DNA from: an uncultured Flavobacteriales bacterium | GTDB taxonomy: Bacteria > Bacteroidota > Bacteroidia > CAIKAF01 | Direction of reading: 5' to 3' | Assembly (NCBI GenBank): GCA_903825395.1 | Contig: CAIKAF010000023.1 | Coordinates: 1-64,000 of the forward strand | DNA: 64,000 bases | Part shown: piece by piece, positions 2,405-61,974 of the stretch | Position numbering within the stretch: position 1 is the first letter of the stretch | Layout of the letters: the number at the start of each line of letters is the position of its first letter | Position numbers and translations under genes: made by a program | The notes under the pieces: generated by a model | Databases searched by the model: none | Told to the model about the DNA's origin: nothing | Seen by the model: the letters and a program-made list of their open reading frames with translations, nothing else

Positions 2405-2429
2405 ATTTGAACATAATTTAGGATGCGTT

Positions 2430-2578
2430 GGGCGGCTGCGGGCTTTCAGCGCTAGTCCGCGGTTGCCGAAAGGCTGGCCCAGCGGGCTTGCGGTGGCTCC
2501 CAAGGTCGCCTCCGCGCCGCGCGGGCCAGGCTTCGGCACCCTTGCGGTCTAGCTGCTTCAATCCCTGCCGCGGGCGGA
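2430..2578 (-). repeat. Family A structured repeat, copy A1
   Basis: On the minus strand the copy runs from GGGATTGAAGCAGCTA, through a GC-rich arm and the apex GGCGACCTTGGGAGCC, into a complementary arm and CTAGCGCTGAAAGCCCG, ending GCCGCCC. The arms pair through GCCGAA/TTCGGC and GCCTGGCCC/GGGCCAGCC (one mismatch). It lies between the end of a plus-strand gene and the end of the minus-strand oxyR gene, a convergent gap. A 64-codon open frame across it is an artefact of GC-rich repeat sequence. Confidence 0.85.
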
Positions 2579-9180: not shown

Positions 9181-9326
9181 CGTTGTGCGCCCCCGATTGA
9201 AGCAGCTTGGGTACGCCAGCCACAGCTAAAGGGGCTGTAGCGAGGAGGCGACCTTGGGAGCCACCGCAGCGGCATAGCCCCTTGCTGTGGCTAAGTACCC
9301 TAGCGCTGAAAGCGGGATAAGGCGCC
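9181..9326 (+). repeat. Family A structured repeat, copy A2
   Basis: GATTGAAGCAGCT at 9195 opens the copy and TAGCGCTGAAAGC at 9301 closes it. The arms are unlike those of other copies but pair perfectly: GGGTAC (9209-9214) with GTACCC (9295-9300), AGCCACAGC (9218-9226) with GCTGTGGCT (9284-9292), and AAGGGGCT (9229-9236) with AGCCCCTT (9276-9283). The apex is GGCGACCTTGGGAGCC. The gap is tandem, downstream of secG and upstream of the nuclease-like gene, both on the minus strand. Confidence 0.9.
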
Positions 9327-9355
9327 AAAAAAAATAAAAAAATGAGAGGAAAGCC

Positions 9356-16235: not shown

Positions 16236-16676
16236 TATTAAATTTCTAAATCATAAATTTCATGATTAGTCGGGTATTTGACAGCGGCAGTCTGGAAATT
16301 GAAAGAAAGTTTAGAGGCTAAACCTCGATTGCAGAAGAAAAGTCAGGGGGGATGGCTTTGTTCTTATTCTTAAGGAAAAAAAACTGAACTTCAAAACTTC
16401 TGAAGTCCTTTTTTAGCAAGGAATTTCACAATTCCTTGTTCATTTCGCCTGTATTCCTTTATGGCAAAGGCCTACAACCAATGTTAAGATTTGAAAGTCG
16501 AAAAACGAGCCGAATGATTGTTGAAAACATTGGGAAATTGTGAATAATTGGAGGGTGTTTTTTGTTGCTCAAGATTGTTTTTTATTGAAAATTTGTTCTG
16601 GTCTTAATGTCAGAGGGGCAAGCGAATTTTGAGTAGAGCAGAGAATTGACTGTTAGGCCTTTAAACTAAATATTGC
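16236..16676. other. Non-coding leader region upstream of nrdB
   Basis: These 441 bp hold no supported gene. A short hairpin ACTTCA/TGAAGT (16388-16406) is followed by CCTTTTTT and could terminate the DUF3109 transcript. It is followed by a perfect 9-bp stem CAAGGAATT-TCAC-AATTCCTTG at 16417-16438. The downstream 230 bp is AT-rich with no clear TAnnTTTG element or ORF. No known riboswitch or NrdR box was recognised by eye. Confidence 0.5.
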
Positions 16677-22325: not shown

Positions 22326-22473
22326 GGCTTGCGGCAGGGATTGAACAAGGTAGCACGCCAAGCTGCCGGAGCCTGGCCCGCGCAGCGCGGAGGCGACTTT
22401 AGGAGCCCACGCAAACCGCTGGGCCAGCCTTCCGGCAGCTGCGGACTACCTGAGAAAGCCCGTCGGCCGCCCC
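22326..22473 (+). repeat. Family A structured repeat, copy A3
   Basis: GGCTTGCGGCAGGGATTGAA opens the copy, the apex is GGCGACTTTAGGAGCC, and GAAAGCCCG...GCCGCCCC closes it. The inner arm AGCTGCCGGA (22361-22370) pairs perfectly with TCCGGCAGCT (22431-22440). The next arm GCCTGGCCC pairs with GGGCCAGCC with one mismatch. It lies between a terminator and the uvrC promoter, both plus strand. Confidence 0.9.
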
Positions 22474-26540: not shown

Positions 26541-26696
26541 CCGGTGGTTTCGGCTACGCTCAACCACCGGCACTGGTGCCTGAGCGAAGTCGAAGGCACG
26601 TTCAACCACCGTCACTGGTGCCTGAGCGAAGTCGAAGGCACGCTCAATCACCGCCATTGGTCACCGCCACGGGTGCCTGAGCGAAGTCGAAGGCAC
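26541..26696. repeat. Family G hairpin array (GAGCGAAGTCGAAGG)
   Basis: Three copies of a 25-bp unit with core GAGCGAAGTCGAAGG start at 26575, 26617 and 26672. Each has GTGCCT/AGGCAC arms and can form a hairpin. A fourth, inverted hairpin at 26541-26570 has stem CCGGTGGTT/AACCACCGG and loop TCGGCTACGCTC, which is nearly the reverse complement of the other loops. CAACCACCG spacers separate the units. Open frames across the array are artefacts. Similar GAGCGAAGTCGAAG repeats are frequent in Bacteroidota genomes. Confidence 0.8.
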
Positions 26697-26717: not shown

Positions 26718-27026
26718 TCATTTTTTGTGATTTTTGTAATGGGTGCTATTTGTGCACTCAGCCAGCGTATGTAAGTCATTAAATATGCCATTAATCAACG
26801 CTTCTTTCTTTTTTCTGCTCCATCCCTGCACTTGCTTTTCTCTATAAAATGCTTTATCAATTCTTTGAAACTCTTCAAAGTACACCAATTTAACGGGCAA
26901 CCTTTTCTTTGTATGATTAGCACCTTCGCCTGCTTGATGTTGAGCGAATCTTAACTCAAGATTGTTGGTGCTACCCGTGTAGTAACTCCCATCAGCACAT
27001 TCTAATATGTACATCCATCCTTTCAT
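26718..27026 (-). CDS. GIY-YIG domain protein, UPF0213/YhbQ-like
   Basis: This 102-residue single-domain protein of the small GIY-YIG nuclease family has MYILECADGSYYTGSTNN at the N-terminus, the Arg in LELRFAQH, and a conserved FQRIDKAFYREKQVQGWSRKKK segment toward the end (Glu of EKQ is the likely metal ligand). Such proteins are often encoded in repeat-rich intergenic DNA and many are dispensable. The biological role is unclear. Its 3' end abuts the family G array. Confidence 0.88.
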   Translation of the reverse strand: MKGWMYILECADGSYYTGSTNNLELRFAQHQAGEGANHTKKRLPVKLVYFEEFQRIDKAFYREKQVQGWSRKKKEALINGIFNDLHTLAECTNSTHYKNHKK

Positions 27027-29248: not shown

Positions 29249-29394
29249 TTTGCGGGCGGGATTGAAGCAGCTACCCCGCAAGGCGCAAGCGGGCAAATGG
29301 CCCCCCGAAAAAGAGCGACTTTAGGAGCTCCTTTTTCGGGGTTGGCCATTCCCGCTTGCGGCGCGGAGTAGCGCTGAAAGCCCGGTTACCCGCC
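29249..29394 (+). repeat. Family A structured repeat, copy A4
   Basis: This is the clearest copy of the family fold. GGGATTGAAGCAGCTA at about 29258 and TAGCGCTGAAAGCCCG at about 29369 form the ends. Nested arms pair perfectly: CGCAAGCGGG (29284-29293) with CCCGCTTGCG (29351-29360), AATGGCC (29296-29302) with GGCCATT (29344-29350), and CCCCGAAAAAG (29303-29313) with CTTTTTCGGGG (29331-29341). The apex is AGCGACTTTAGGAGCT, where the closing pair is A-T rather than the usual G-C. It lies downstream of the secreted TPR-like gene and upstream in sequence of tRNA-Thr. Confidence 0.92.
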
Positions 29395-29403
29395 CAAATA
29401 CCC

Positions 29404-30816
29404 TTACTGAATGCGGGAAAGCAGCTGTTGTATTTGCTCTTCTGTGTACTGTTCCTCCCGAGCCAAGTGGCGCAGTTCAGCGGCCGACATGACCGAGCCC
29501 AGAAAGGACTCGATGGGCTGGCGCTGCACCCAAGATGCCATGGCCAGCCAGCGCAGAAATTGCCGGGCCGCCTGCTGGGGGTTGAACAGATACATGCCCG
29601 ACAGGCTTGAATTGGCTGTGTTGCTGCTGCCCATGCCCCAAGTTTCGGTATGCTGTATGGCCCAATCCCAGTAGCCCTGGCTGCGGTTCCAGCCGAAAAA
29701 CTGATGCCAACGCCGGGGAAGCGTATCCTGTGGCTGAATGTGTTGATGCAGAAAGCTCCACAGCGCATCGCTTTGCGGGCGCAAATGCTGAGCCAAATCG
29801 GTCCAGCGGCGCGGCGAAGCCCATACCATGGCGTTCAGCCACCAAAAAGCCTGTTCATTTGCCGGTCGGCGCCCCAGCAGCCGCGTTTGAGCCGCTGGCG
29901 TTTGATCCATGCTTTTGCCGAGCCAGAGCTGCATAAAATCGCGTTGCTCGGGCCGGTACGGAATGGCTCCGGGCAGAAAAACCCGAGACACAAAATCAGC
30001 TTTAGCGCGGTAAAATTGACTGCTATCGGGCCACGCATCCTGCAGCAAAGAGGCCCAAAACAGGCATCCACCGGGCGTATTCAAATCGGGATATTGCAGC
30101 TGTTTGGCACAAAAAAACAGAGAATCGAACTGCTTCAAATCGGCGTAGGATTGCATCAGAAAGGGATAATCTGGCCGTTCGAAGGGCGGCCCTGAACGAA
30201 GAAAATAGGTTTTAGCCTGCTGAGGCTGACGGTTGAGCACATGCAGCCGAGCCAGCATTAAAAATTCGGCGGTATCGGCAAATCCGCGGGCCTCAATGAA
30301 GGAAAAATCGTTCAGGGCCAGGCTCAAACATGCCGCTCGGAAACTGCTGTCGGTTCCTGCCCAAGGGGCGGGATTGCCTTGATATTGATTCCGGCCATCG
30401 ACGCTGGCATTGAACAGACCTGTGCTGAGCATTTCATAGGCCATTAAGGCCCGGCGGCCCAGCAATTCAGGATATGGGCCAAAGGTTTGAATGGCTGAAT
30501 CGATGCGGTGCATTCCTTCTTGGCGTTGCCCATTGCGGAACAAGCACCAAGCGGCCACCTGGTGTCCCTGGGCGCAATCGGGTTCTCCATGCACCACCGA
30601 CAAAGCGAAGGCCAGCGCCTTTTCGCTGTCGTTTAAGTCTAGGCTTTGCAAAGCAAAGCGCAACTGTAGGTCGCTCCAGTCGGAGCAAGAAGCCAAGGGC
30701 TTTAATGGAATTTCGTCCAGCTTTAGAAGGGGAGAAAAACGAGGCTTTTGTGCGTTTCCCAGCTGTGAATAAAGAACAAAAAGGGCTGCAATGCACCAGA
30801 AACCAATCCGAATCAT
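29404..30816 (-). CDS. Exported helical-repeat protein
   Basis: This 470-residue protein has a signal peptide (FWCIAALFVLYSQLGNAQ). The mature part is alpha-helical with degenerate TPR-like pairs (ALQSLDLNDSEKALAFALSV, AAWCLFRNGQRQEGMHRIDS). It is rich in Trp and Gln. No catalytic motif is seen. It overlaps the stop of the SDR gene by 4 nt, so the two are coupled. Its role is unknown; protein-protein contact in the periplasm or at the outer membrane is plausible. Repeat A4 begins just past its stop. Confidence 0.7.
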   Translation of the reverse strand: MIRIGFWCIAALFVLYSQLGNAQKPRFSPLLKLDEIPLKPLASCSDWSDLQLRFALQSLDLNDSEKALAFALSVVHGEPDCAQGHQVAAWCLFRNGQRQEGMHRIDSAIQTFGPYPELLGRRALMAYEMLSTGLFNASVDGRNQYQGNPAPWAGTDSSFRAACLSLALNDFSFIEARGFADTAEFLMLARLHVLNRQPQQAKTYFLRSGPPFERPDYPFLMQSYADLKQFDSLFFCAKQLQYPDLNTPGGCLFWASLLQDAWPDSSQFYRAKADFVSRVFLPGAIPYRPEQRDFMQLWLGKSMDQTPAAQTRLLGRRPANEQAFWWLNAMVWASPRRWTDLAQHLRPQSDALWSFLHQHIQPQDTLPRRWHQFFGWNRSQGYWDWAIQHTETWGMGSSNTANSSLSGMYLFNPQQAARQFLRWLAMASWVQRQPIESFLGSVMSAAELRHLAREEQYTEEQIQQLLSRIQ

Positions 30817-41650: not shown

Positions 41651-41691
41651 CGAAACTTTCCTCAGGCAGGCTGTGGAGCGTTTCTTTTTTT

Positions 41692-41839
41692 GGGCGGTGT
41701 ACGGGCTTTCACCGGTTGTCCGCGGCTGGCGGAAGGCTGGCCCAGCGGGCTTGCGGTGGCTCCTAAAGTCGCCTCCGCGCCGCGCGGGCCAGGCTCCGCC
41801 ACCCTTGCGGGCAACCCGGCTCAATCCCTACCGCAGGCG
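41692..41839 (-). repeat. Family A structured repeat, copy A5
   Basis: On the minus strand it opens GGGATTGAGCCGGGTT, passes the apex GGCGACTTTAGGAGCC and closes AACCGGTGAAAGCCCG...CCGCCC. The outer pair changes in both arms relative to other copies: CCGGGTT opposes AACCGG, where others have GCAGCTA opposing TAGCGC. TGGCGGA/TCCGCCA is an inner stem. It lies in the divergent gap between carB and the dnaE-like gene, so it cannot act as a terminator for either. Confidence 0.88.
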
Positions 41840-57493: not shown

Positions 57494-57646
57494 AGGGCGG
57501 CTGACGGGCTTTCCGCGCTAGTACGCAGCAAAAAACCGGTTGGAGTTGGGCCAAAAGTAGCTCCTCACGTCGCTCTTTTGCCCTGCCTCCAACATCGGTT
57601 TTTTGCTTTGCGCGCTAGCCGCTTCAATCCCTGCCGCAAGCCCCCT
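57494..57646 (-). repeat. Family A structured repeat, copy A6
   Basis: On the minus strand it runs GGGATTGAAGCGGCTAGCG, apex AGCGACGTGAGGAGCT, then CTAGCGCGGAAAGCCCG and GCCGCCC. The arms are unlike other copies but pair: AGCAAAAAACCG (57527-57538) with CGGTTTTTTGCT (57596-57607), GTTGGAG with CTCCAAC, and CAAAAG with CTTTTG. The apex closing pair is A-T as in A4. It follows the flippase stop by 5 nt. Confidence 0.9.
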
Positions 57647-61824: not shown

Positions 61825-61974
61825 GCTTGCGGGCCGGATGGAGCAGGGTCAGCCCGCAAGGACCGAAGCCCTGGCTACGCGAGGTGCGGAGGCGACCTTG
61901 GGAGCCACCGCAAACCCGCTGTAGCCATGGCTGAGGACCGCGGACTGCCCGCGACAGCCGGAATTCCCGCCCCA
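61825..61974 (+). repeat. Family A structured repeat, copy A7
   Basis: It opens GCTTGCGGGCCGGATGGAGCA, has apex GGCGACCTTGGGAGCC, and closes CCGGAATTCCCGCCCC. It is the most diverged at the ends. Arms pair through AGCCC...GGCTAC with GTAGCC...GGCT. It lies in the divergent gap between the stress-protein gene and lipocalin gene, about 20 bp upstream of the latter's -7 element. Confidence 0.82.

Follow-up and report, generated by a model that had tools for sequence, protein, structure and literature searches.

The apex described here tops a hairpin element of ~146 nt (family A) that lies between genes and is present in ~190–200 copies per genome. We read it, with moderate confidence, as the capped tip of an imperfect palindrome that acts as folded single-stranded DNA or as an extruded cruciform, along the lines of REP and REPIN sequences. 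The analysis started from a 64,000-nt stretch of an uncultured Flavobacteriales genome (the window). Exact matches to GCGACNTTNGGAGC numbered 192 in this 2.63-Mb genome (G000) against one for a reversed control pattern, and the family A apex is therefore not a product of chance. The congeners G001, G003 and G005 carry 200, 155 and 177 matches, respectively; G002 and G004 have one or two, and the rest of the class has practically none. A covariance model of 146 positions, built from 89 copies (R1), gave 108 matches in 859 kb of G000 (genome-scale element counts by R1 in this genome used stretches totalling ~0.86 Mb) and, of 100 genomes sampled from the class, matched 18. The viral contigs, plasmids and phages searched gave no match to the element, and the possibility of phage or plasmid cargo was rejected on this ground.

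All seven family A copies that a sequence-only reading had listed in the window were recovered by covariance model search and by sequence: A1 (2429–2573, minus strand, loop CTTG, 143.3 bits), A2 (9185–9328, plus strand, CTTG, 77.2 bits), A3 (22329–22473, plus strand, TTTA, 127.5 bits), A4 (29250–29396, plus strand, 113.7 bits, E 4.5e-25), A5 (41691–41836, minus strand, TTTA, 148.9 bits), A6 (57494–57639, minus strand, neck AGC/GCT, loop GTGA) and A7 (61827–61973, plus strand, CTTG), the last two also being model matches. Apices with the loop CTTG lie at window positions 2495, 9247 and 61891 and those with TTTA at 22392, 29314 and 41758. Copy A4 illustrates the layout on the plus strand. The left half (GCGGGCGGGATTGAAGCAGCTACCCCGCAAGG, nt. 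29250–29284) and the right half (ending in GCGGAGTAGCGCTGAAAGCCCGGTTACCCGCCC, nt. 29365–29396) of a conserved outer frame, delimited from the flank/frame logo and, on the left, also from A1, enclose an exchangeable inner hairpin with approximate limits of nt. 29285–29364, drawn from orthologous sites at which the frame is the same and the inner hairpin differs. At its tip lies the apex AGC-GAC-TTTA-GGA-GCT (AGCGACTTTAGGAGCT, nt. 29314–29329), comprising the neck, a predicted tandem G.A and C-G step, and the tetraloop TTTA (nt. 29320–29323), of which positions 1 and 4 covary genome-wide as T..A, C..G or G..A.

The sequence-only reading had described necks of GGC/GCC in five copies and AGC/GCT in A4 and A6, with GAC and GGA unchanged throughout the seven, and this is what we found. 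Its alternation of C..G and T..A in the loop is likewise borne out, as is the G..A of A6, except that the middle bases of A6 are TG rather than TT. Among 202 model-found copies from three genomes (three species), the pattern NGC-GAC-NNNN-GGA-GCN is kept in 193, a count in which GAC/GGA conservation is slightly favoured because the model was built from copies selected on the apex pattern. When copies were instead selected on their ends, just three true copies among ~92 had another apex (GGCGACCARCGGAAGCC); this subtype, with the same outer frame, lies at L068:6335–6482 and at L092:3444–3586 and 16303–16445. In the 193 copies the neck pair is G-C in 167 and A-T in 26, with no mismatch and no G.U step, and loop positions 1 and 4 are T..A (89), C..G (83), G..A (19), C..A (1) or A..A (1). 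The middle bases of the G..A-closed loops vary (GTGA, GCGA, GTTA, GTCA), in keeping with a GNNA loop; GNRA and CUUG loops are classic RNA tetraloops too. When the apex was left out of tree building, C..G and T..A loops occurred together in at least 26 disjoint supported clades, an approximate number given recombination among copies. The earlier proposal of a paired neck and a co-varying loop closure is thus strongly supported, and independent variation of the two sides did not occur among the genomic copies. GAC/GGA, which had been proposed as an internal loop, is probably not simply an open one: set antiparallel, the two triplets would most simply form G.A and A.G, followed by a C-G pair closing a tetraloop (CTTG, TTTA or GNNA).

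Below the apex, the outer frame hardly changes (GCGGCAGGGATTGAANNRGGTAGCCCGCAAGG ... CCGCGGACTACCNNTGAAAGCCCGNNNGCCGCCC), and the inner stem varies widely in sequence at a nearly constant length. Changes on both sides are seen at 44 of the 52 pairs in the alignment of 89 copies, and the covariation score is 0.347, compared to 0.111 for shuffled alignments and at most 0.102 for slid partners. Whereas G.U pairs are normally tolerated in RNA helices, two alignments here held 87 and 76 G.U against 103 and 82 A.C, each ~1.5% of pairs; in well-paired columns only, the numbers were 63 vs. 35 and 58 vs. 48, a mild G.U excess. A change on both sides of a pair does not by itself point to RNA, given that some such changes arose when the inner hairpin was exchanged as a block (see below) and that G.U intermediates are almost absent.

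The window family is an extended, apex-capped relative of Flavo-1 (RF01705; Weinberg et al. 2010, PMC2864571) rather than a member by threshold, as distant R1 matches coincide with Flavo-1 hits just under or below the threshold. R1 and RF01705 matched the same coordinates on the same strand at six loci (L136, L135, L123, L121, L124 and L119), and the best RF01705 score among the R1-found relatives was 41.0 bits (L136), short of the curated gathering threshold of 42 bits. RF01705 hits in the congeners G001, G002, G004 and G005 had E-values of 1e-4 to 1e-6; there was no match in the window copies to E 5 and none in typical copies to E 10. Together, these intermediates connect the family by homology to Flavo-1, which itself matches 37 of 100 sampled genomes, often in high copy, with at least 42 copies scored in G079. 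The two have in common the outer frame GGGATNGAAGCGG...AGCGGAWAGCCC, the phylum and the high copy number, whereas the window copies are ~2x longer and have a conserved inner hairpin capped by GAC-tetraloop-GGA. Matches to microRNA-like Rfam families were far below threshold and were set aside as generic hairpin noise. For 15 years Flavo-1 has stood among the candidate noncoding RNAs without a function. The capped variant has ~200 diverse copies in each genome, and several species share orthologous copies, which makes the question of RNA or DNA directly testable and supplies a dense set of natural mutants of a hairpin cap.

Were the element to act as DNA, the plus strand would fold into a long hairpin, and its strand-specific irregularities (a tandem G.A at the base, a bulged A and another tandem G.A at the tip) would mark the strand to be used by a binding or processing protein. 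At the tip, the G.A/C-G/tetraloop cap would have to remain closed, and past spread would be the work of an HUH tyrosine (RAYT-like) transposase. The foremost alternative, possible though doubtful in our view, is a structured noncoding RNA, transcribed from the plus strand, whose G.A/tetraloop cap would be the binding site of a protein or an RNA. The strong covariation, the GNRA and CUUG-like apex loops and the chain of homology to RF01705, typed as an sRNA in Rfam, all speak for an RNA of this kind. Against it, G.U is rare and about as common as A.C, a G.U intermediate of the neck is seen in none of the 193 copies, and the orientation relative to the left and right neighbour genes is mixed; furthermore, in the transcriptome of F. 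psychrophilum, Flavo-1 lies indifferently sense or antisense to transcripts, with many copies untranscribed (PMC9723704). For these reasons action as DNA is favoured, although not proven. We count the GNRA/CUUG loops and the mild G.U excess against the DNA reading. Block exchange also suppresses intermediates, which weakens the argument for DNA, and the purine-rich mismatches of the plus strand fit any single-stranded plus strand, be it RNA or DNA.

The copies avoid genes, with none of 108 inside a gene in one gene call and 7 of 211 in a cruder one (3/107, 2/53 and 2/51). Their right ends lie within 30 nt of the stop codon of an opposite-strand neighbour in 38 of 60 cases, compared to 5 of 42 for starts, a proximity that repeats in G001 and G005; in A4, 8 nt separate the right end from the stop codon of a minus-strand gene (29404–30816). 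A role in 3' end protection or as a transcript boundary has been proposed for E. coli REPs, and an mRNA hairpin with such a role at gene 3' ends, on either strand and with the strand-specific features incidental, would suit both this placement and the very stable fold (z = −7.8 as RNA and −8.9 as DNA for A4). We nevertheless regard it as unlikely, as the strand-asymmetric unpaired motifs are nearly invariant, many copies sit before gene starts, and the hairpin is not an intrinsic terminator. The latter would need a G+C-rich hairpin with a T-run and was rejected, there being no T-run after the hairpin on either strand: the right flank is 46% A, 6% G and 22% T, and the left flank is without an A-run. 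In G000, G001 and G005, the 20–25 nt to the right of the element are nearly 50% A on the plus strand and very poor in G (6–9% over 20 nt), whatever the direction of the neighbouring gene. Pairing between the left and right flanks was also dismissed, the two being complementary in composition only and not copy by copy (−8.91 vs. −8.90 kcal/mol), and a signal of replication-strand bias was weak and inconsistent.

Comparison of orthologous sites indicates that the copies are long-standing. Sites of G000 copies are occupied in G003 (16/16), G001 (8/8) and G005 (11/14), as are all nine sites compared between G001 and G005, and across these four genome pairs the orientation at occupied sites is always the same. 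Taken from the G005 copies, 12 of 19 sites in G000 are occupied in the same orientation, one has an opposite neighbour and six appear empty, so gains and losses do occur; the empty sites are too diverged for a duplication or the exact boundary of an insertion to be read. Occupancy persists across flanks of 71–90% identity, and orthologs are more alike than random pairs in both the outer (0.87 vs. 0.73) and the inner (0.77 vs. 0.64) parts. At the sites orthologous to A7 (61827) in G001 and G005, the element is 91–92% identical and the coding flanks 71%, which suggests that individual copies may be under selection, with gene conversion towards a consensus as the alternative source. If selection does hold copies at conserved places, a repeat family would have turned into part of the working layout of the genome. 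More speculatively, and as a tentative suggestion only, Flavo-1 and its relatives may form, rather than RNAs, a Bacteroidota-wide class of folded DNA that is REPIN-like, has a fixed frame and an exchangeable inner hairpin, carries a protein-read cap in this genus, and has been long kept in place because individual copies benefit the cell.

At some sites the inner hairpin has been exchanged as a block while the outer frame was kept. Some ortholog pairs share the frame and have inner hairpins only 42–48% identical (L227:9643 and L239:11048, for instance, have wholly different inner hairpins at 0.46), and the inner hairpin is entirely different at the sites orthologous to A6 in G001 and G005. It could be argued, then, that the double-sided changes are mostly block replacement by gene conversion and that the covariation says little about selection on pairing. 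The A-T neck, confined mostly to a few lineages (8 changes vs. 25 when shuffled, in the tree without the apex), would agree with this. We hold such an account to be quite improbable, however, given the recurrent loop-pair switches across clades, the replaced inner hairpins, which are always well paired themselves, and double changes that are as many as broken pairs among the orthologs (132 vs. 126).

By analogy, the reading as folded DNA would make the element REPIN-like. REPs and REPINs with their TnpA-REP (RAYT) transposases (PMC3116915, PMC8266576, PMC8049555) likewise comprise hundreds of intergenic imperfect palindromes with strand-specific mismatches, form head-to-head doublets with a short spacer, persist vertically and occur in carriers with and without a RAYT. 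Family A is a high-copy extragenic imperfect palindrome with conserved mismatches, and its close pairs are inverted: all 12 pairs less than 1 kb apart are head-to-head (−/+), nine of them spaced 38–76 bp, with most copies being singlets. It differs from REPs in being ~4x longer and in lacking a GT[AG]G foot, this motif being near the left end in 22 of 205 copies and within the frame helix in 64 of 202. A possible further parallel is offered by the 'atypical secondary structures' found beside TnpA-REP genes of subclass 2.6 in Bacteroidetes (PMC6006769), which also lack a GT[AG]G foot and have copies elsewhere in the genome; the RAYTs beside copies of our element, by contrast, mostly resemble those of subclass 2.4 (YIxNNP, in-frame insertions).

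RAYT-like genes (~190–330 aa) are present in G000, G001, G002, G003, G004 and G055, and none was detected in G005 despite ~177 copies of the element. Of the four RAYT-like genes examined in G000 and G001, three have an intact copy shortly upstream in the opposite orientation (P ~0.001 against a background of 693 genes), and the fourth has a truncated one; the link is only suggestive, as it was found after several looks. It is very improbable that the resident RAYT still moves the element today as a non-autonomous transposon: these upstream copies and the few orthologous sites that differ in occupancy speak for such activity, but all 16 sites are common to G003 and most to G001 and G005 in the same orientation, and G005 has no RAYT found. 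The absence of a GT[AG]G foot and of a RAYT in G005 also counts against the DNA reading, as do the scan of RAYT genes in Flavo-1-rich genomes, which found no Flavo-1 match nearby, and the presence of GTAG-footed REPs belonging to the RAYTs here. A GTAG-footed hairpin repeat, GTAGAGACGCAC...GTGCGTCTC, lies beside RAYT-like genes at L357 and L210 and is probably the cognate REP of the adjoining RAYT; the repeat at L357 sits inside a truncated copy of the ~146-nt element and breaks it up.

Other mobilisers were also considered. Genes of 150 aa matching Pfam Y1_Tnp showed no clear enrichment of copies, and an apparent orientation rule at these genes was partly an artefact of unoriented loci. They carry repeats of their own, GACCCCTTCGGGGTC hairpins, which follow the 150-aa Y1 transposase genes in several Bacteroidota (L053 after 1998, L169 after 1872). 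Retroposition was rejected, as G000, G001, G003 and G005 gave no RVT_1 hit for a reverse transcriptase. The window also holds a different repeat family at 26556–26694, made up of three 42-nt direct repeats that each end in TGCCTGAGCGAAGTCGAAGGC, adjoined by a minus-strand open reading frame (nt. 26718–27026, 102 aa) that by eye resembles a GIY-YIG endonuclease.
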